Shown one piece after another: positions 21,377-34,685 of a stretch of DNA of 64,000 bases. Origin of the DNA: Terrimicrobiaceae bacterium (GTDB taxonomy: Bacteria; Verrucomicrobiota; Verrucomicrobiia; Chthoniobacterales; Terrimicrobiaceae); NCBI GenBank assembly GCA_018402345.1, contig JAGYIV010000016.1:62001-126000 (forward strand), given 5' to 3'. The translations under genes and the position numbers were made by a program. Under the pieces are notes generated by a model. The model was not told the origin of the DNA. It made no database searches and saw only the letters and a program-made list of their open reading frames with translations. Position 1 is the stretch's first letter, and every line of letters begins with the position of its first letter.

Positions 21377-21913
21377 ATGGAATTGACGATTTCATCTCCG
21401 AGGGCGGCAGTGACCTCAAAATCCCAGCTGCTCGGATTCGAGTCCCAAGGCCAGCGCTACGCTTGCGATCTGCTTTGGGTCAAGGAGGTTCTGCGCAGCC
21501 CGTCAGTCACTTCGATCAGGTTGGCGCCACCGTATGTGCGTGGAGTGATTCATTTGCGAGGTCAGATCCTCACGGCGCTTGACCTTGAGATCCGGCTGGG
21601 ATTGGAACAGAAAACCCCCGCTCCGATAAACAGGTGCATTGTGTTCAAGACATCCACCGACTTGGCGAGGTTGTCGAATGCGCCCGAGGACAGCGCCGCC
21701 GCTGAATCGGATTCGATGGGGGTGTTGGTTGATGCGATCGGGGATATTTTGCCTCCTGGCACGCCTGTGCTGCCCGCCCCGCCAGAGACGCTCAGCGGGT
21801 TGGATTCCCGTTTTATCGAAGGCGTGATCAGCGATGCCGGGCAACTCGTCACTGTGCTTCGCATCGGTGCGCTTATCTCTCTTGTCGAACCGCGAGGCTC
21901 TCTACCCGCATGA
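21377..21913 (+). CDS. cheW: CheW chemotaxis coupling protein
   Basis: 178 residues. A short N-terminal tail precedes a CheW domain: LLGFESQGQRYACDLLWVKEV, PYVRGVIHLRGQILTALDLE and GVLVDAIGDIL are the family strands, including the RG-rich loop that contacts receptors. CheW links chemoreceptors to CheA. It has a strong ribosome-binding site (GAGGAGGAAT, 21365-21374) and is the first gene of a run of eight same-strand chemosensory genes; the 153-base gap upstream is the likely promoter. Confidence 0.93.
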   Translation: MELTISSPRAAVTSKSQLLGFESQGQRYACDLLWVKEVLRSPSVTSIRLAPPYVRGVIHLRGQILTALDLEIRLGLEQKTPAPINRCIVFKTSTDLARLSNAPEDSAAAESDSMGVLVDAIGDILPPGTPVLPAPPETLSGLDSRFIEGVISDAGQLVTVLRIGALISLVEPRGSLPA

Positions 21914-22218
21914 GCACATCCACAATAAACGGCGCGTTGGTTTTGAGGCTGGACTCCTTGAACAAGGACAATGCTGCGGCGCGCGCCGCAGCGATCGGTG
22001 CCGCGCTTGGGCAGGCTGCGGGGGTGCTTCGGATCGAGCTTTCCGGCTTGGAGGGGCCCGATGCTGCTGGTCTTGCCGTGTTGATCGCCGCATCGAACGA
22101 GGCCCGATCCCGCTCTTTGGAGCTGCAATTGGGCCTGCCCAAGGAATTGTCCGAACTCGCTGAGGATCTCCGCCTCGGCAAACTCGCAGTGGTTGAATCT
22201 CTGGAGGTATTGCCATGA
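21910..22218 (+). CDS. STAS-domain protein in chemosensory operon
   Basis: 102 residues, a single STAS-like alpha/beta domain: LVLRLDSLNKDNAAARAAAI, RIELSGLEGPDAAGLAVLI, then LQLGLPKELSELAEDLRL. In SpoIIAA-type anti-anti-sigma factors the loop reads DSSG and carries the phosphorylated Ser; here it reads GPDAAG, so no phosphorylatable residue is present. Both ends overlap neighbours (ATGA with cheW, ATGA with cheA), so stoichiometric co-expression with CheW and CheA is expected. It may be a structural adaptor of the array; that is inference. Confidence 0.8.
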   Translation: MSTSTINGALVLRLDSLNKDNAAARAAAIGAALGQAAGVLRIELSGLEGPDAAGLAVLIAASNEARSRSLELQLGLPKELSELAEDLRLGKLAVVESLEVLP

Positions 22219-24971
22219 ACCAAGGAGACCAGGAGATGATGGAGCTGTTCGTGCAGGAATCGAGCGAGCATCTTCAAACTCTCGAAACAGACTTGATCGC
22301 GTTGGAGGCTACTCCCGGCGAGGGCTCGTTGCTGAACAGCATTTTTCGGGCTGTCCATAGCATCAAGGGAGCTGCGGGCTTTTTCGGTTTCGATCCGATT
22401 GTGAAGCTCGCGCATGTCATGGAAAGCGTCATGTCGCTTCTGAGGGATGGCCAGGAGACGGTCGATCAGGACATGGTGACGTTATTGATTTCGACCTCCG
22501 ACAAGTTGCGGCTGATGTTGGCGGAGCCGGAAGCTGCCGCATCGATTCCCTGCGATGACGAGAGAGCCGGGTTGCAGGCTGTTCTCGACAGCCACTTAGG
22601 CAAGAAAATCGGACCACGGACCCCGGGTGTCGTTCACGATGCGGTTGAACCCGCACAGCAATCCGGCGGGCAAGTTGGGCCCGAGGCTGGAAGTTATCCG
22701 CATGAGGCGTTGACGGGATTCAGTTTCACGGCGGCATCGCTTGTCGAAGGCTTGAAGCACGGGCAGAACTTTTATGTGGTCCGGATCAACCTTGGTGAGG
22801 TCCAACACCAAGGACAAACGCTAAAGCAGTTTTTCAGTGAGGTGCGTTCGATAGGATCCGTCCTTGATACCGTGCTTGAATGTCCCGCTGACATCGGCCT
22901 GACGAGTGCTGTCGGTGTGGTGCCGGTGGCTCGTGTCTTTTACGTGACGCCGCTTGAACCATTCATTCTTTCCGGGGCGCTCGGGATTGAAGGCGATCAA
23001 ATTGTCGAGATCCCCTCCCAATCTCTCAAGGATTGGGTGAAGGCAACTCCGGAGGGTGTTTGTGCGCCGCCACCGCTATCGGTTCCCGTAGCGGTGGGCT
23101 CGAGGGAGATCGTCGCCGCTGCCAAGTCTCCCGTGCCTGCGGCTGTGGAATCTGGCGTGTCGAAGCCCGCACCCACCCAGATCGATCCCAAGCCTGTGGC
23201 TGGCCAACGGCGCAAGGCCGAGGAGACGATTCGGATCAATGTCGGACTTCTCGACACGCTAATGAACCTTGCCGGGGAGATGGTCCTCGGGCGAAACAAA
23301 CTGCTGCGCCTCGCGGGTGGCGGTGGGGCGGTCGGCGATCAAGTCGAATTGCAGTCCATCGTGCAGGATATCAGTTCCGTGACATCCAGCCTGCAGGACA
23401 CGATCATGCGTGCGCGCTTGCAACCTGTCGGCGGGCTTTTCGGCAAGTTCACCCGCATCGTGCGCGATCTGAGCCACAAGCTGAACAAGGAAATCCACCT
23501 TGAGATTTTCGGTGACGATGTCGAACTCGATCGCACTTTGCTCGAGGGGCTTTCCGATCCGCTGACGCACCTGGTCAGGAACAGTATCGACCATGGGATC
23601 GAGAGGGCTGCCGACCGTCTGGCTGCTGGAAAGTCCTCCCAAGGAACTGTGAGGCTCTCCGCGGCGCATCTTGCCGGGAGGGTGCAAATCGAGGTGTCCG
23701 ACGACGGCGCCGGCATGGATCCCGAGCGACTCAAGGCAAAGGCGGTGGAGAAGGGAATTATTTCCGCCGACCAAGCGTCGCGGATGTCTGACAACGAGGC
23801 ACAGAATCTCATTTTTGCGGCAGGATTTTCAACCGCAGCCGCCGTGAGCGACATCTCAGGACGCGGGGTTGGGATGGATGTTGTTAAAACCAATATCGAA
23901 AAGCTGGGTGGACACGTGGAACTCGACAGCCGTGTGGGGCAGGGCACGCGAATTATCATCAGGTTGCCGTTGACGCTGGCGATCATTCCTGCGTTGATTG
24001 TTGGTTGTCGTGGAGCAAGTTATGCTCTTCCTCAGATCAACATTGAAGAAATTGTCCGCCCTGGTGAGGATTGCCCGTTGAAGACAATCGGGGGCGCAAG
24101 AGTTTTGGAATTGCGAGGCCAGTTGATCCCCGTGGTTGATCTTGGGGAGGTGCTGGGCGAACCCTCCGTGCCGTGCGAACAATTTGTTGTGTTGTTGGAG
24201 TTGGACCACGCGACGTTTGGGTTGGTGGTTGATGAAATCCGGAGCAATGAAGAGATTGTGGTCAAACCACTCGGGCGCCATTTGCGGTTGGTTCCATATT
24301 ATAGCGGAGCGACGCTTCTCGGGCAGGGGGAAATCGCCTTGATTCTCGATCCGACATCGATCGCGCAAGGGCGTATCAGTGCGATACAAAAAGCGCTGGG
24401 CACCTCGAAAACGCTCGAACTCCAGACTCAACCCGGATTGGATTCCTCGCGTGTGCTTGTGTTTCATGCTGGTGGAGTGGAGCAACTGGCCATCCACCTG
24501 CAGCATGTGCTTCGAGTCGAGGCGGTGCGTGCGGAGGACTTGGAGCGCATTGGCGGCACCGAGTGTCTCCGCAAGAACCACGACGCAACGATCCGCCTTC
24601 TTTCGCTCTCCGAGTTGGTTCCCGTCACTCCACCGGAGAGTCGCCCGTCGGAGTTTTTCATCATCGTTCCCCGGCCGCCGTATGATAGGATCGGCATCGT
24701 TGCCACAAGAATCGTCGATTCGGCAGACCTTCCCGCAGCACAGATCGAGCGCGGGGCGATGGCAGCGCAAGGCATCGCAGGAAGTGCGGTCTTGTTTGAC
24801 CGCTTGACCCTCGTTCTGGACTTTTCGGGTCTTATTGAGATTTTGGCCGGTGGATCCGCCGAGAACCAAGGCTCATTGGTCGCCGAAGGCCGGTTTTTAT
24901 TCACCACCAATCCCAGTCACCACCCTCACCATCAAATCAAACAGCTGCCTGAACAATCCGCCCATTCGTAA
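22215..24971 (+). CDS. cheA: Chemotaxis histidine kinase CheA with two CheW-like domains
   Basis: 918 residues. Order: Hpt (P1) with phosphoacceptor H48 in AVHSIKGAAGFFGF; a region about 170-290 that looks like a P2 substrate-docking domain; a low-complexity linker; dimerisation helix (P3) NVGLLDTLMNLAGEMVLGR; HATPase (P4) with HLVRNSIDHGIE, DDGAGMD and GFSTA...SGRGVGMDVVK; regulatory CheW-like P5; then a second CheW-like domain near residues 745-890. It autophosphorylates on receptor signals and passes phosphate to CheY and CheB. Two CheW-like domains are found in some non-flagellar and array-variant systems. No flagellar genes are in the window. Confidence 0.95.
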   Translation: MNQGDQEMMELFVQESSEHLQTLETDLIALEATPGEGSLLNSIFRAVHSIKGAAGFFGFDPIVKLAHVMESVMSLLRDGQETVDQDMVTLLISTSDKLRLMLAEPEAAASIPCDDERAGLQAVLDSHLGKKIGPRTPGVVHDAVEPAQQSGGQVGPEAGSYPHEALTGFSFTAASLVEGLKHGQNFYVVRINLGEVQHQGQTLKQFFSEVRSIGSVLDTVLECPADIGLTSAVGVVPVARVFYVTPLEPFILSGALGIEGDQIVEIPSQSLKDWVKATPEGVCAPPPLSVPVAVGSREIVAAAKSPVPAAVESGVSKPAPTQIDPKPVAGQRRKAEETIRINVGLLDTLMNLAGEMVLGRNKLLRLAGGGGAVGDQVELQSIVQDISSVTSSLQDTIMRARLQPVGGLFGKFTRIVRDLSHKLNKEIHLEIFGDDVELDRTLLEGLSDPLTHLVRNSIDHGIERAADRLAAGKSSQGTVRLSAAHLAGRVQIEVSDDGAGMDPERLKAKAVEKGIISADQASRMSDNEAQNLIFAAGFSTAAAVSDISGRGVGMDVVKTNIEKLGGHVELDSRVGQGTRIIIRLPLTLAIIPALIVGCRGASYALPQINIEEIVRPGEDCPLKTIGGARVLELRGQLIPVVDLGEVLGEPSVPCEQFVVLLELDHATFGLVVDEIRSNEEIVVKPLGRHLRLVPYYSGATLLGQGEIALILDPTSIAQGRISAIQKALGTSKTLELQTQPGLDSSRVLVFHAGGVEQLAIHLQHVLRVEAVRAEDLERIGGTECLRKNHDATIRLLSLSELVPVTPPESRPSEFFIIVPRPPYDRIGIVATRIVDSADLPAAQIERGAMAAQGIAGSAVLFDRLTLVLDFSGLIEILAGGSAENQGSLVAEGRFLFTTNPSHHPHHQIKQLPEQSAHS

Positions 24972-24977
24972 CTCAAA

Positions 24978-27062
24978 ATGAAAATCAACCTATCCACACG
25001 AATCATCCTCAGCATGGCCGCCGCGGGCTTGATCCCTGTTCTTGGCCTGTTGGCGCTTACCATCGACAAGGCGAACACGATCTCCGACATGGCATCCGAG
25101 GAAATGCTGATCATGGCTTCGAGTTGCCTGGACATAATTGAGCGCAACCTGTTTGAGCGCTATGGTGATGTGCAGGCATTTGCGACAAATGAAGTGCTTT
25201 CTTCCAGCGATTGGAGGGATCCGTATGTGAACAGGTCGATTGTCGAAGCCATCAACAACTATGTCCGCCTCTATGGCATCTACACTCTCAGCATGGTTTT
25301 GGACCAGAATGGAATTGTCGTTGCGGTCAACACCCGAGATGCCGCAAGCAAGCCGGTTGAGACATCGTTTTTGATCGGCAAGGATTTCTCAAAAACCGAG
25401 TGGTTCAAGAACTGCAGAGAAGGGCGTTTTACGGAAAGCGAAAGTTTATCCGGCACGGTGGTCAGCGATGTGGCGCGGGATTCGGATGCCGGGGCGATTT
25501 ATGGTCCCGAGACGCTGGTGATCGGGTATTCGGCTCCGATCCTCGGGAAGTCTGGGGAGTTTCGTGGTGTATGGAGAAATCTTGCTGATTTTACTCTCGT
25601 AGAAGATATTATAGAATCAGCCTACGGGAGCTTGGAACAACGCGGCATCAAGTCAGGCGAGATTACCCTTGCCAACAGTCAAGGCACTTTGCTGGCGTTT
25701 CTCGAACCTGCCCTCTCCGGATCGCTGGATTTCAAGCGCTCCGAATCCGGCGTGCTCAAGAAGACAAAGGAGGATTTGGCCACGCAGTCGATCCTCGAAG
25801 CGGCGCAGGGAAAGTCAGGCTCGCTCAGGGAGGTTTGTCCTGACAAAAACGTATGGCAGATAAGCGGTTACTCAAAATCAAATGGGGCCTTGGGGTATCC
25901 TGGGCTTGGTTGGTTGATCACGGTGAGTGTCACCGAGCAGGATTTGCTCAAGCGAGTGCACGAGATTTCCTATGCCACGGGGGCTGGTGCCATTTTGATT
26001 TTGCTTGTATCGGCATTTTTCATCGGGCGGTCGATTAGCCGACCGGTGGTTGCCTGCGCGAGGGAGGTTCAGAAGTTGGCCGACGGCGATTTGACGGCCC
26101 GCGTGGACATCCGACGCAGCGACGAGTTGGGTGTCTTGGCGGACTCGGTGAACACATGTGTTCAAAACCTGCGCAAGATGGTCGAGGAAATCCAGCACAC
26201 GTCGAGTTCGCTCAATGCGGCCTCGACCGAGTTGACCGAAACGGCCAACCAGCAGGCGGCGGGTGCCGAGGAGACCAATGTGCAGGCCCACACGGTTGCT
26301 GCAGCCGGCGAACAGCTCGCCACAAACTCCAAGCTCATGTCCTCCTCGGCCTCGGAAATCACACTATCCGCCACCACTGTGTCGGCGGCGCTGGAGGAGA
26401 TGTCGTCCTCGATCAGTGAGGTGGCCCGCAATTGTGCGCAGGAGTCCGAGATCGCCCGTAAGGCCGACATCCAAGCGCGCCAAACCCGCGACCTCATGGT
26501 CAAGCTCGACGATTCGGCCCGGCAGATCGGAAAAATCGTGGAACTCATCAACCGCATCGCCGAGCAAACCAATCTTCTCGCCCTCAATGCCACGATCGAG
26601 GCAGCCAGTGCCGGTGAGGCCGGGCGAGGGTTTGCGGTGGTCGCCAACGAGGTCAAGGAACTCGCCCGCCAGTCGGCATCCGCCACGGAGGACATCCGCC
26701 GCCAAGTCGCGCTGATCCAGGAAAATACCGCCAACTCGATGGGGGCCATCGACGATGTGGCGGGCGTGATCGAGCAGGTCAGCCAGATCGCCAGCAGCAT
26801 TGCTGCGGCGGTGGAGGAACAATCGGCCACCACCTCAGAGATCGTTCGCTCGCTCCACGCGGTCACCTCGTCGACCAAGACGCTGTCGGAAAACGTCAAA
26901 AGCGCCTCCGCCGGATCGTCCGAGGTCTCGCGCAACATCCATGGTGTTTCCCAAGCTGCGAGCGACTCGGCCAAAGGCGCCTCGCGTATCAGTTCCAGCG
27001 CCGCGGAACTCAGCAGCCTCTCAGAGACGCTCGGTTCGCTGGTGACCCGCTTCAAGCTGTAG
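24978..27062 (+). CDS. Methyl-accepting chemotaxis protein with dCache sensor
   Basis: 694 residues. TM1 at about 10-29, a large periplasmic Cache-type sensor (about 35-330), TM2 near 335-354, a HAMP domain ([19 protein letters not shown]) and a cytoplasmic coiled coil. The hairpin tip [20 protein letters not shown] is the canonical CheA/CheW contact. There is no C-terminal NWETF-like pentapeptide, so CheR and CheB must bind elsewhere. It lies seven bases after cheA, so it is the operon's dedicated receptor; the ligand is unknown but dCache domains often bind amino acids or organic acids. Confidence 0.95.
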
Positions 27063-27090: not shown

Positions 27091-28167
27091 ATGCGAATTC
27101 TCATTGTCGACGACTCAGCCCTCTACCGGAAAATCCTGAGCGAAGCCGCTGGCGCCTTGCCTGGGGTGACTGCGGTATCTGTTCCGAACGCCGAGTTGGC
27201 CCTTTCGAAGCTGGCCTCCGAGCCGGTTGACCTCGTCCTGCTCGATATTTTCATGCCCGACCGGAACGGGCCCGAGGTGCTTGCGGAAATCAAGAGCCTC
27301 TACCCGAAGCAGAATGTCGTGATGGTCAGCGGTGCCACCGGGCGCGATGCCGGAATCACGCTCGAGGCGTTATCGAACGGGGCGATCGATTTCATCGCGA
27401 AGCCCGCGGCGGGTGGACTGGCGACCGGTGCGGAGTTGATGAAAAAGGAGATCTCCCGCGTGCTTGACACGGTCAGGCAGCGGTCGTCCGCCTCCGATGG
27501 AACGCCCCGCCCTGCTGCTCCCCAGGAAGCGGCGGCCAGAACTTCTCTGCCGGCGTTCTCGCGCTCACGCACAAATCCGCCGGCGTTTTTGGATCTTGTT
27601 CTTATCGGTGTTTCCACTGGAGGGCCCAAGGCTCTTGGAGAAATGCTTGCACGCCTCTCGCCGGATTTTCCCGTGCCGATCCTGATCGTGCAGCACATGC
27701 CGGCGGTGTTCACACTGTCGCTGGCAGGGCAGTTAGATCGTGTTTGTCCGCTGCAGGTCAAGGAGGCGGACGATCGACGGCCATTGAAAGCCGGGGAGGT
27801 GTTGATCGCGCCTGGCGGGAGGCATCTGGAAATGGTTAAAGACGAGGGCGGTGCGCTCTCCACTCGAATCACCGATACCGCCCCGGTCCACTCCTGCAGG
27901 CCCTCGGTGGATGTGCTGTTCGAGTCCGCCGCGAGGTGCCGCTTGCGGGGCGTTGTGAGTGTGGTGCTCACCGGCATGGGGTCGGATGGTGCCGAGGGGT
28001 TGGAGAAACTCAAGGCGTGTTCGCCGGTATGGAGTATCGCACAGAATGCCGCAACCTGTGCGGTGTATGGGATGCCCCAAGCGGTCGTCAATGCCGGTCT
28101 TGCCGACGAGGTGTTGCCCTTGGCCGGGATCGGACCACGCCTGAACCAAATCTTCCGCGTCTCCTAA
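27091..28167 (+). CDS. cheB: Chemotaxis response regulator protein-glutamate methylesterase
   Basis: 358 residues. The receiver domain has the acidic pair VDDS and phosphoacceptor D52 in LVLLDIFMPD. After a linker, the methylesterase domain shows the catalytic Ser in GVSTGGPKAL, the His in QHMP and the Asp in LTGMGSDGAEG. CheB removes methyl groups from receptors and gives adaptation. It follows the receptor gene by 28 bases. Confidence 0.95.
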   Translation: MRILIVDDSALYRKILSEAAGALPGVTAVSVPNAELALSKLASEPVDLVLLDIFMPDRNGPEVLAEIKSLYPKQNVVMVSGATGRDAGITLEALSNGAIDFIAKPAAGGLATGAELMKKEISRVLDTVRQRSSASDGTPRPAAPQEAAARTSLPAFSRSRTNPPAFLDLVLIGVSTGGPKALGEMLARLSPDFPVPILIVQHMPAVFTLSLAGQLDRVCPLQVKEADDRRPLKAGEVLIAPGGRHLEMVKDEGGALSTRITDTAPVHSCRPSVDVLFESAARCRLRGVVSVVLTGMGSDGAEGLEKLKACSPVWSIAQNAATCAVYGMPQAVVNAGLADEVLPLAGIGPRLNQIFRVS

Positions 28168-28172
28168 ATGCC

Positions 28173-29033
28173 ATGTTTGATTTCTCTAAAAGCGGCGCGG
28201 ATTTTCCCTTGCTGACAAAATTTGTCGCGGAGGCGTGCTGTATTCACCTCGGCGAGGACAAGCGGTATCTTTTCGAGTCGCGTCTCGGGCCCGTCATTTC
28301 GGAATCAGGCGCCACCTCGATTCCGGAATTCATACGAATGGCGCGCGGCGATGCCACAGGAAAGCTGCGGGACAGGATCATCGATGTGATGACCACGCAT
28401 GAGACCTATTGGTTCCGCGACTCACACCCGTGGGCTGCGCTGGAAGCCCAGTTGCTGCCGGCTCTGGCCGCCAAAATCGCCAGCGGGGAAAAAAGTCGGA
28501 TCAGGATTCTCTGCGCCGCATGCTCCACCGGGCAGGAGCCCTATTCGATCGCGTTGCTGTTGCAAAAGCTCTGCAGCGGGGGGGCACTGGGATCGGTGCG
28601 GCCGTCGGATTTCGAGATTCTCGCCTTCGACGTCTCTCGAGGCACGCTCTTCCTCGCTGCCTCAGGGCGATACAGCCAGATCGAGATCGCCCGCGGCCTC
28701 CCGGAATTCTGGCGTAACAATTATTTCGATGCCACACCGGGCAATACATGGACGCTACGCGAACAGGTGCGGAGGATGGTCACGTTCAAGCGCAGAAACC
28801 TTCAAGACAGCTTCGCGGGAATGGGGCTGTTCGATCTCGTTCTCTGCCGGAATGTCGCCATCTACTTCGAGAACGACTTTAAGAGGGACTTGTTCAACCG
28901 TCTGGCCGATATTATTTACCCGTCTGGCTACCTGATGCTTGGCGGTGCCGAGTCGTTGCTCACCCACGGGCATCTTTTTGAAATCGACCGACTCGGGAGC
29001 GCCATTTTTTATCGCCGCCGCAACAACGCTTGA
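28173..29033 (+). CDS. cheR: Chemotaxis protein methyltransferase
   Basis: 286 residues from ATG 28173, five bases after the cheB stop. The N-terminal helical part includes the receptor-binding helices and THETYWFRD; the SAM domain has ILCAACSTGQEPYSIAL and LFDLVLCRNVAIYF. CheR methylates glutamates of the chemoreceptors. Earlier in-frame codons belong to the overlapping cheB region and are not used. Its stop overlaps a possible TTG start of the next gene. Confidence 0.94.
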   Translation: MFDFSKSGADFPLLTKFVAEACCIHLGEDKRYLFESRLGPVISESGATSIPEFIRMARGDATGKLRDRIIDVMTTHETYWFRDSHPWAALEAQLLPALAAKIASGEKSRIRILCAACSTGQEPYSIALLLQKLCSGGALGSVRPSDFEILAFDVSRGTLFLAASGRYSQIEIARGLPEFWRNNYFDATPGNTWTLREQVRRMVTFKRRNLQDSFAGMGLFDLVLCRNVAIYFENDFKRDLFNRLADIIYPSGYLMLGGAESLLTHGHLFEIDRLGSAIFYRRRNNA

Positions 29034-29050: not shown

Positions 29051-30130
29051 ATGAGCCCACAACAAAAATCCCAAGACGAAACCCAGACTCTCCAGAACTG
29101 GTTTGAAAGTTTGAACGCACTTGCTCGCCGTATCGCGGCGAACATGGACAATTCCCTCCGCCAGATCGACGATATCAACATGCAGGTGCGCCTGCTCTCC
29201 TTCAACGCGCAGGTCCAGGCGGCCAAGGCCGGCGAGGCGGGGCGAACCTTCTCGGTTGTGGCGAACGAGATCGGCAACCTCTCAACCAAAACCGCCCGTG
29301 TGGCGGAAAGTCTCGCTGCGGAAACCACCCAGGACATCAAACAACTGGCAGAGATCAGCGACCGCCTCGCCGCGGATGTATCCGGCAACCGCTTCGTGGA
29401 CCTTGCCCTCACAAACATCGACCTCATCGACCGAAACCTCTACGAGCGCTCCTGCGACGTGCGCTGGTGGGCCACCGACCCCAGTGTGGTGGATGCGCTT
29501 GCGAAGCCCGACAGCCAGTCGTTCCGTCATGCCAGCGACAGGCTCGGGGTGATTCTCAACGCCTACACAGTGTATTTCGATATTGTCCTTTGCGACATGG
29601 GAGGCACTGTTGTCGCCAACGGACGGCCTGAACAATTCAAATCCGTCGGCTCCAGCGTGCTTCATTGCGAGTGGTTCCAGCAGGCTCTCCAATCGCGTTC
29701 GGGCAACGACTTTGGATTCCAGTCGGTGCACGCCTCCCCGCTTGTCTCAGGCAAAAATATTTTGGCCTATTCGTGCGGCGTGCGTGCCAAAGGCGAGGCG
29801 GACGGTCAACTGCTCGGGGTGCTCGGCATTCTCTTCAATTGGGAGTCGCTCGCACAAACCATCGTTGAAGCCACGCCGATCGAGGCAGTGGACAAGTCGT
29901 CCGTGCGCGTGTGCATCATCGACCGGGCTGGAAACATCCTCGCCGACACCCGTCGTGAAATCCTCAAGGAACGGTTGGCAATCGAGCCGCTGGCCCCCTT
30001 GATCCAAGCAGGCAAGGGATTTCGTATCGTTGAATCCTCCAGCCAACGTCAACTCCTCGCTCTTGCCACTGCGCCGGGCTACGAGACCTACAGCACAGGG
30101 TGGCACGGCCTCATCATTCAAACCCTCTGA
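29051..30130 (+). CDS. Soluble receptor-like protein: N-terminal MCP signalling tip, C-terminal Cache domain
   Basis: 359 residues from ATG 29051 (a TTG at 29030 overlapping the cheR stop would add seven). Near residues 35-80 it has FNAQVQAAKAGEAGRTFSVV and NEIGNLSTKTARVAESL, clearly the hairpin tip of a chemoreceptor (compare [20 protein letters not shown] in the neighbouring receptor). The rest, about 110-350, is a Cache-like sensor with WWATDPSVVDAL, FDIVLCDMGGTVVANGRPEQ and VCIIDRAGNILADTRREILK. There is no signal peptide or transmembrane helix, so it should be cytoplasmic, with domain order reversed relative to ordinary receptors. It may sense an internal ligand and insert into the CheA/CheW array (inference). 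Confidence 0.8.
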   Translation: MSPQQKSQDETQTLQNWFESLNALARRIAANMDNSLRQIDDINMQVRLLSFNAQVQAAKAGEAGRTFSVVANEIGNLSTKTARVAESLAAETTQDIKQLAEISDRLAADVSGNRFVDLALTNIDLIDRNLYERSCDVRWWATDPSVVDALAKPDSQSFRHASDRLGVILNAYTVYFDIVLCDMGGTVVANGRPEQFKSVGSSVLHCEWFQQALQSRSGNDFGFQSVHASPLVSGKNILAYSCGVRAKGEADGQLLGVLGILFNWESLAQTIVEATPIEAVDKSSVRVCIIDRAGNILADTRREILKERLAIEPLAPLIQAGKGFRIVESSSQRQLLALATAPGYETYSTGWHGLIIQTL

Positions 30131-30216: not shown

Positions 30217-30594
30217 ATGAAAATCCTCGCTGTCGATGATTCAATGCTGATCCGCCGCATTGTTGCCAATGCCGCCTCCGTTCTTGGGGCGGAATGCACA
30301 GGAGCGGAGGATGGTCTGGTGGGCCTCGGACATCTGGAACGCGATCCCACCGGGTTCTCTCTGGTTGTGCTGGATTGGAATATGCCCAACATGAACGGGC
30401 TCGATCTTCTCCGCCGGATTCGCGCCGAAGAAGCCTTGAAGCACATCCCCGTGCTCATGCTGACCACAGAGGGAAGTCATCACTCCATCGTCACGGCTAT
30501 CAAAGCCGGCGCCACGGCTTACATGACCAAGCCGTTTGTCGAAGAGGACCTCCAAAGCCGCATGCTCGACTGCCTGGGCATGGGGTTTGATTGA
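30217..30594 (+). CDS. cheY: CheY-type response regulator
   Basis: 125 residues, a single receiver domain: VDDSMLIRRIV acidic pair, phosphoacceptor D53 in VVLDWNMPNMNG, switch threonine in LMLTTEG and lysine in MTKPF. As the last gene of the cluster it is the likely output of CheA. An 86-base gap precedes it, so it may have its own promoter. It ends one base before the convergent tonB stop. Confidence 0.93.
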   Translation: MKILAVDDSMLIRRIVANAASVLGAECTGAEDGLVGLGHLERDPTGFSLVVLDWNMPNMNGLDLLRRIRAEEALKHIPVLMLTTEGSHHSIVTAIKAGATAYMTKPFVEEDLQSRMLDCLGMGFD

Positions 30595-32412: not shown

Positions 32413-32449
32413 AGTCTCAAAATAAATATTGCAAATGAGACTGACTCTC
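32413..32449. promoter_or_regulatory. Fur-box-like operator between exbB and the TonB-dependent receptor
   Basis: AATGAGACTGACTCTC at 32434-32449 matches the inverted-repeat Fur consensus TGAGAATGATTCTCA at 12 of 15 positions. In addition AGTCTCA (32413-32419) and TGAGACT (32436-32442) are a perfect 7-bp inverted repeat around an AT-rich AAATAAATATT core. The position between divergent exbB and a FecA-type receptor is where a Fur site is expected. Confidence 0.5.
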
Positions 32450-32467
32450 TTTAAACCCCCTTTTCGC

Positions 32468-34685
32468 ATGAGTGCAAAAAACACAATGAAACGGGCTGCA
32501 GCCGCTTGTTTACTGGCTGTGGCGGGTGGGGGAGCTGGTCTCCATGGGCAGGAAGCAGTGGAACAATTGCCAGAAGTCCAAGTGCGCGCCGACTATGATA
32601 GCAAGGTCGATGGCGCTTTTTTGCCCGCGACGGAAGGAACAAAAATCCACGCCGGCAAGAAAACCTCGAACATCGACTTGGACGAACTTCCCGAGATCAG
32701 CATGGACAATTTCCGCCAAGCGATCGCGAAGACACCGGGGTTGGTTATGGCGGAAGAAAGCACGCCGCTGGTGAGCATCGGCTCCCGGGGGTTCGATCCA
32801 CACCGCATGATGTTCATGCAGGTGCTGGAGGACGGCATTCCGATCCACGCCGACATGTATGGATACGCTGAGGCCTACTATACCCCGCCGCTCGACTTGG
32901 TGGAGAGCATCGAGTTCGTGCGGGGCGGGGCGGCGCTCATGTATGGCCCTCAGCCTGGCGGAGCGATCAATTTCATTATGAAGAAGCCGCCGCTCGACAC
33001 GCCGTTTGAATTCCAGACGTCGAACTTCATGGGGAGTTTCGGCATGTATTCGAACTTCACCTCGTTCGGCGGCACGATCGGGCGCTTCGGGTATCTGGGC
33101 TACTACGACCACCAGCAAACGGAGGGCTTCCGCGAGGCGAACAGCGATTTCTTCGAGAATGCTTGGGGCGGAACCTTCGCCCTCGACGCCACAGGCCCAT
33201 TCCGCACCTACCTGAATCTCACGGCCTACGATGAAACCCATGGCGAACCCGGTGGCGTGACATTGGCCAAAGGCCCGAACGCGGTGAACTACGACACCGA
33301 TCGCTTTGGCACCTCGCGTTTCCACGACCGCATGCGGATTAGCCGTTATTCCGCGTCACTGATCAACGAGTGGGACATCTCTGACAGCACGCTCGCGACC
33401 TTCCGAACCTGGTGGACCTACTACCAGCGCTTCAGCCGTCGTCAAAATGGTGGCGGATTTGGCACCCTGCCGACCGGAGCGAGCCGCACAGACCAACCAG
33501 ATCGAGAACCAGCAATTCTACAACTTCGGCTTCGAGCCCCGCGTCAGCCACAACTGGGAATGGCTGGACAACACCCACACGTTCGCGGGCGGGATGATGT
33601 TCTATTACAACTGGTCGCCCATGCTTCAGATGCAGGGCAACTCGCCGACGACGAACCACGGATCGATTCTGAACCAGAACAACCGTGAGAGTGTTTCCTA
33701 CAGCATTTTTGCCGAAAATCTTTTCCAGTTCGGAAATCTCTCGATCACACCGGGCTTCCGCTTGGAAAATATCTGGCAAAGCGTGAATGAGCTCGTGAAC
33801 CGGAGTTCGTTCCAAACCGGAGCGCCGCTCAAGGACGAGACGATCTACAACTTCGCCCCGCTCTTCGGCCTCGGTGTGGAATACGCCTTCACGCCAGAGG
33901 TGGCAGCGTATGCCAACGTCTCTCAATCCTACCGCCCGCCCTTCTTCACCCAGGCAGTGCCTGTCAATCCGAACACCCGCGTTGAAGGCCCGCTGCAAGA
34001 GGCGACAACCGTGAATTATGAAATCGGCTTCAAAGGCGAGCCCGTCACTTGGTTCACTTGGGACACCAGCTTCTTCCTTGTCGATACCTCCGACGCGATC
34101 GGGTCCCGCGCCGTGAACGAGGGGCAGATCACGACTGTCATTGAAAATGCCGGCCGCGCCGTCGTGTATGGCTGGGATCTCTTTACAGAACTCGACTTTG
34201 TGGGTCTTGCCGATGCGGTCTGGAACACCGACAGCCCAGCTATGTCCGGTGGGAAAAATCCCATCGCTGCATCCCGTGGGAGCTGGGTGGACCGATACGG
34301 ATCCTTCTCCGCCTACACCGCCCTCACGCTCCAAACCGGGGATTTCCTGAGCGGACCAAATGTTGGCAAAACGCCGCAGTATGTCTCCGACTACATCGTC
34401 CGCCTCGGCGTGATCTACAACTGGCGCGACCGCTTGAAGCTCGCCCTCATGAGCAACTTCAACGGATCCACCTACGCCTCCGACAACAACGCCGAAAACC
34501 GCTTCATTCCAGCTTACAATGTCTGGGATCTGATGGGCGAAGTGAAGGTCTGGCGTGACAATGTCAGCCTCATCGCCGGGGTGAACAATCTGTTCAATGC
34601 CAATTACTATACCCGTATCCGCGCCGACGGTATCGATCCGTCTGCTCCTACAAATTGGTATGCCGGCATCAAAATCGAATTCTAA
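32468..34685 (+). pseudogene. TonB-dependent FecA-type outer membrane receptor, one frame break
   Basis: The 5' part has a signal peptide (MKRAAAACLLAVAGGGAGLHG after a short extension), plug domain with SIGSRGFDPHRMMFMQVLED, YGYAEAYYTPPLDLVESIEF and VRGGAALMYGPQPGGAINFI, very similar to ferric-dicitrate receptors. After FGTLPTGA (about 33480) the frame shifts by +1 and continues as QTNQIENQQFYNFGFEP to a barrel end NWYAGIKIEF. Removing one base near 33482 restores about 738 residues. ATG 32468 or 32486 is favoured over 32435, which lies inside the Fur-like box. phnDCE-like genes follow. Confidence 0.85.

Follow-up and report, generated by a model that had tools for sequence, protein, structure and literature searches.

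Does a chemoreceptor-like protein that carries its signalling tip ahead of its sensor, and lacks membrane segments, act as a receptor in its own right, or is it a rearranged copy or a decoy of the classical receptor encoded nearby? The question is raised by a gene on the + strand (29051..30130, with ATG at 29051 and a stop codon ending at 30130) of a 64,000-nucleotide stretch of Terrimicrobiaceae DNA, hereafter the window, which encodes a soluble protein of 359 aa with the tip first and a dCache domain last. The reading favoured here, to which a probability of roughly 70% is given, is that this protein belongs to a distinct and widespread family and is a cytoplasmic chemoreceptor, working in CheA/CheW arrays and reporting an internal ligand.

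Domain order and cellular location

Pfam searches gave a match to MCPsignal (PF00015, E 2.3e-15, above cut-off) at residues 4-100 and a match to dCache_1 (PF02743, E 1.4e-6, below the curated cut-off) at residues 83-306, and in the family alignment the two domains were recovered in 73/73 and 71/73 members respectively. When submitted to Foldseek, the C-terminal part of the AlphaFold model retrieved the dCache structures DctB, Tlp3 and PctC with E values down to 6e-14. On the Pfam and Foldseek results the cytoplasmic dCache sensor domain was set at residues 112-359 (29384..30127, + strand), and the hallmark of dCache_1, a pair of PAS-like modules carried by a long N-terminal helix, is present (Foldseek, family Pfam matches). 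The reversed order proposed in a preliminary description of the sequence, with the signalling tip N-terminal and the Cache C-terminal, is thus confirmed by Pfam, the family-wide matches and Foldseek. No match to a CZB domain was found in the 359-aa protein, its C-terminal part being a Cache.

The absence of membrane helices, also proposed beforehand, was borne out by the Kyte-Doolittle profile, in which no 19-residue mean exceeded 1.46, whereas TM1 in the neighbouring receptor reached 2.44. Since the tip must reach CheA/CheW, a cytoplasmic location of the protein is implied, and it departs in this from the extracytoplasmic location that is usual, if not absolute, for dCache_1. The gene is under purifying selection, with dN/dS values of 0.056, 0.105 and 0.138 against three congeners.

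The N-terminal part as a predicted short hairpin

The signalling hairpin was delimited at residues ~18-106 (29102..29368, + strand; arms ~20-61 and ~63-104) from the Pfam MCPsignal match, tip matches in the PDB, covariation and the position of an insertion, and its turn, G61-E62-A63-G64 (residues 61-64, 29231..29242, + strand), from conservation and the same insertion. Hydrophobic positions keep heptad register from residue ~20 to ~106, before as well as after the turn, and across 120 relatives the sole insertion site within residues 18-106 is the turn itself, where 7 sequences carry one additional residue. Mutual information between the arms is maximal on the antidiagonal i+j = about 125, matching a turn at 62, and this peak was reached by none of 5000 permutations of positions. 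Among solved structures, the best tip matches were the Tm14 hairpins 3ur1 and 4jpb. Taken together, the conservation, the covariation and the turn-only insertion support the prediction that the N-terminal part forms an antiparallel hairpin.

AlphaFold was dropped as proof of the hairpin and covariation used in its place, both monomer models showing a single helix that starts at the N-terminus, passes the tip without a break and ends at residue 141 or 127. These models were judged from secondary-structure strings rather than coordinates, so that a 3-10 turn might appear as helix; in the published TlpD structure the tip is assigned a 3-10 helix (PMC12871147).

From the conserved register and the covariation, each arm measures ~6 heptads, ~12 in all, whereas the Tsr signalling domain has 36 heptads and the named MCP length classes, 24H-64H, all have at least 24 (PMC6943060), leaving this hairpin outside every one of them. 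Ahead of the turn there are only some 61 residues, and beyond it the Cache is reached after ~45 residues of the second arm. In MCPs the methylation region lies about 12 heptads from the tip (distances as in Tsr), and the 359-aa protein has no such region. As its hairpin is too short for methylation sites at the canonical distance, the receptor probably does not adapt by its own methylation. The same region is missing in TlpD and so is not strictly defining for the MCP superfamily. Another feature of this superfamily, an MCPsignal domain with a conserved hairpin tip sequence, is found here.

Residue conservation and clues to the ligand

In the tip, N52, A53, G64 and F67 are invariant and E56, R59, V69, V70 and A71 mostly retained, and the turn glycines G61 and G64 are conserved at 99% and 100%. 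In the window's genus, residue 56 is Q rather than E and residue 59 is K rather than R, so that contacts in the trimer or with the kinase could be weaker. The Cache part has some 30 invariant positions, comprising R114, D127, R128, L130, E132, R133, C135-T142, R164, I168, L169, Y172-Y175, D177, G185, G191, W208, R245, F262, G343 and E345. These include the signature DRNLYERSCDVRWWATD (residues 127-143, 29429..29479, + strand; family form DRNLYERxCDVRWWATD) in the long first Cache helix; the DNA form of its CDVRWWATD segment occurs once in the window versus 0 expected.

This pattern bears on the proposal, made in the preliminary description, that the protein is a decoy competing for CheA/CheW, in which case its tip would occupy CheA/CheW sites and lower the activity of classical receptors while the Cache is structural. 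The very short hairpin without methylation region, the position of the gene beside a full receptor and the presence of other receptors alongside the family member in all 21 genomes checked are what such a brake would lead one to expect. A decoy, however, needs a tip rather than a sensor, and the strictest conservation is found in the Cache domain and not in the tip. The sensor being constrained at least as strictly as the tip, and relatives without a recognisable tip having retained the Cache and gained a CheW, the decoy is considered improbable. The alternative of the same description, a soluble sensor, is the better supported one and is graded likely, considering the missing membrane segment, the conserved tip and Cache and the Che operon.

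The Cache profile matched solved structures only weakly (Tlp3 alone, E 0.015), hence a ligand could not be assigned by homology. The dCache_1AA amino acid motif includes PctA R126 and PctA D173 (PMC10104139); in the remote alignment (E 0.015), WF 208-209 falls on the W-Y pair of this motif, while its Arg position is occupied by C/A/T/S and its Asp position by the invariant Phe262. On this remote alignment the amino acid motif appears not to be retained. The closest Cache structures in Foldseek are DctB (C4-dicarboxylates), Tlp3 and the Pct receptors, and from these and the many conserved arginines an anionic ligand is a fair guess but nothing firmer.

Operon and genomic neighbourhoods

The 359-aa gene belongs to an operon in which all genes lie on the + strand, in the order CheW (21377..21913; Pfam CheW E 3.9e-22), STAS-like protein (21910..22218; Pfam STAS_2 E 1.5e-6, just below cut-off), CheA with Hpt, dimerisation, kinase and CheW-like domains (22215..24971), classical membrane chemoreceptor with dCache-like, HAMP and MCPsignal domains (24978..27062), CheB (27091..28167), CheR (28173..29033), the 359-aa gene and a CheY-like response regulator (30217..30594). 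The operon with a classical receptor, CheR and CheB that had been described is present and extends to CheW, the STAS-like gene and CheY. The STAS-like gene, between CheW and CheA, overlaps each by a few bases.

The host genome contains three MCPsignal genes in total, together with a FliF-type ring gene and PilT-type genes. Elsewhere in the window, at 32429-34685, a TonB-dependent receptor gene is apparently split into two overlapping frames, perhaps through a frameshift or an assembly error, the first ORF carrying the plug domain and the second having no Pfam match; it adjoins ExbB, ExbD and TonB genes on the opposite strand.

Within the window's genus the order CheB-CheR-[gene]-CheY is found wherever contig extent permits, in several Planctomycetota the family gene adjoins CheA, often divergently, and in 44 of 100 loci response-regulator or Che genes lie at most four genes away. 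Clustering of the neighbours returned chemotaxis genes and genus-local synteny, with no partner gene pointing to a ligand. Most Pseudomonadota loci have no chemotaxis genes nearby, which, with two Methylobacterium plasmid copies next to GGDEF or EAL genes, fits a protein without any chemotaxis role, whose tip-like coiled coil would merely dimerise a sensor working elsewhere, for example in c-di-GMP control. Against this stand the conserved kinase-contact tip, the position of the gene between CheR and CheY and the CheW fusions described below, and such a role is judged very improbable.

Family distribution and origin

One scan of genome contigs yielded at least 592 encoding loci in several phyla, archaea included. 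The best 80 of these at least 592 loci belong to Verrucomicrobiota, Planctomycetota including anammox lineages, Pseudomonadota, Spirochaetota, one Balneolaceae bacterium and Thaumarchaeota. Members are 38-91% identical to the 359-aa protein, almost all of 340-390 aa and of the same domain order, and are publicly annotated as 'methyl-accepting chemotaxis protein', nothing more. Full-length members occurred in 28/398 sampled genomes of Pseudomonadota, 7/246 of Planctomycetota and 4/289 of Verrucomicrobiota, usually in one copy, and no family match was found in phages.

The preliminary description had suggested that circular rearrangement of the neighbouring receptor gave rise to the protein, on the strength of a common RNL(F/Y)ER...DVxxxAT pattern. 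This resemblance is real, BLASTP aligning the Cache halves locally at 28% identity (116 aa, E 1e-8), and reflects distant kinship of dCache domains. In the Cache-domain tree, where the neighbouring receptor was represented by its orthologue from locus L021 instead of the window's own receptor (P0003), the 359-aa protein groups with Verrucomicrobial members inside the family, and a long branch (length 3.3, support 100/99) sets the neighbouring-receptor type apart. With identically built relatives in several phyla, archaea too, the probability that the protein arose from its neighbour through circular rearrangement or recombination is close to nil.

One clade of the tree (support 98/89) unites Nitrosotalea-type archaea, anammox bacteria and a Nitrosomonas MAG (loci L045, L081, L046, L036, L038 and L142). 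This mixed nitrogen-cycle clade hints at transfer among those organisms or at a common ligand, although binning errors in MAGs may also contribute.

Other architectures linking the Cache type to the array

Two further architectures came up when the Cache part was used by itself as a search profile. Some Pseudomonadota, and two species of the genus to which the window belongs, encode soluble dCache-dCache-CheW proteins of ~880-930 aa with the same Cache type (L011:682-3369, L139:907-3696, L140:832-3474, L174:4605-7274). In Planctomycetota, soluble dCache-tip-dCache proteins with a degenerate tip were detected (E 1e-15 to 6e-17, search size 1000), and in three loci these are encoded beside CheA and CheW (L175:3495-9540, L176:6383-12745, L177:2595-8715). 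CheW-CZB and some 30 combinations that await study figure in a published survey of CheW architectures (PMC10653840), and the dCache-dCache-CheW fusions may be among them.

Four thaumarchaeal (Nitrosotalea-type) genomes have two MCPsignal proteins each, the family member and one other. The latter, inspected in L075 (8498-9892), combines HAMP and MCPsignal, lacks a sensor domain and has only 84 residues ahead of HAMP, and in several thaumarchaeal loci an archaellin gene adjoins the family member. From this domain content, the tip-Cache protein is likely to be the sensor in the four genomes. The pairing with an almost sensorless HAMP-MCP, along with the likeness of the CheW-fused relatives to adaptors, would also suit a ligand-reading adaptor, whose tip binds the array or another receptor and which signals only through the trimer of that receptor. 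Yet the tip spans both arms and the turn, and its canonical contact positions are largely retained family-wide, which makes the adaptor rather unlikely, and the reading of the protein as a receptor in its own right is preferred. It is further proposed, tentatively and at slightly less than even odds, that these proteins form a class of their own, Cache chemosensors which work inside the cell and plug into arrays in three ways (tip-Cache, Cache-tip-Cache and Cache-Cache-CheW), and that some ammonia-oxidising archaea have the tip-Cache protein as their one sensor-bearing receptor, partnered with a sensorless membrane receptor.

In Methylobacterium, the family members adjoining GGDEF or EAL genes lie on plasmids (L178:4722-5747, L179:4713-5741). 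MtpA of Methylobacterium aquaticum is a cytosolic formaldehyde-taxis receptor without a Pfam sensor (PMC10613068), and one Methylobacterium plasmid member has, as in MtpA, MCPsignal as its sole Pfam match. By this analogy, membership of MtpA in the tip-Cache family is a possible lead.

Relation to known soluble receptors and Cache proteins

The reversed order has a precedent in the soluble TlpD/CZB receptors (Helicobacter pylori), which are cytoplasmic, with the hairpin before the sensor and the sensor on the second arm, and which have, as in the family, a short hairpin without the canonical methylation sites (PMC12871147). CZB, like the Cache type of the family, is also fused to CheW, as CheW-CZB (PMC10653840). 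The TlpD sensor, however, is the helical zinc-binding CZB and not a Cache, its hairpin is about half the length of that of Tsr whereas the family hairpin is about a third, and the sequence relation is confined to the tip. The tip-first soluble layout is already known, and in this family a Cache stands in place of CZB. Tm14 and similar Thermotoga receptors are soluble like the family and, as noted, offer the best tip match, but have a longer hairpin and no ligand-binding domain (PMC12871147).

With the membrane dCache proteins Tlp3, PctA/B/C and DctB the family shares its sensor fold, while these have membrane helices and an extracytoplasmic sensor ahead of the signalling part. The stand-alone dCache_1AM proteins of Actinobacteria are intracellular like the family, but are encoded with a transcription factor, carry an amine motif and have no receptor tip (PMC10104139). 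Cache families were described by Upadhyay et al. as principally extracellular, with two small exceptions, and their signalling route as a C-terminal membrane helix only (PMC4822843); in a preprint on amine sensors, the use of a dCache inside the cell is called a rare repurposing (PMC10104139). In a literature search covering mainly open-access papers, no study of this family of cytoplasmic receptors with a C-terminal Cache was found.

Proposed mechanism and significance

For the favoured cytoplasmic receptor, we infer insertion into the array, ligand binding inside the cell and a direction of signalling as follows. The N-terminal ~90 residues would fold as a very short antiparallel hairpin and dock on CheA/CheW, with the descending arm continuing directly into the long first helix of the cytoplasmic dCache. 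Binding of an intracellular ligand to the Cache would shift this helix and hence the tip, and the shifted tip would alter CheA activity beside the membrane receptors of the same array, the input arriving, as in TlpD, via the second hairpin arm and not the first.

If true, this would provide the Cache fold with a second mode of signalling, inside the cell, via its first helix and a minimal tip, which may be the smallest receptor unit able to drive the chemotaxis kinase. In archaea and anammox bacteria whose chemotaxis is little explored, the family would also offer a concrete candidate for the sensor.
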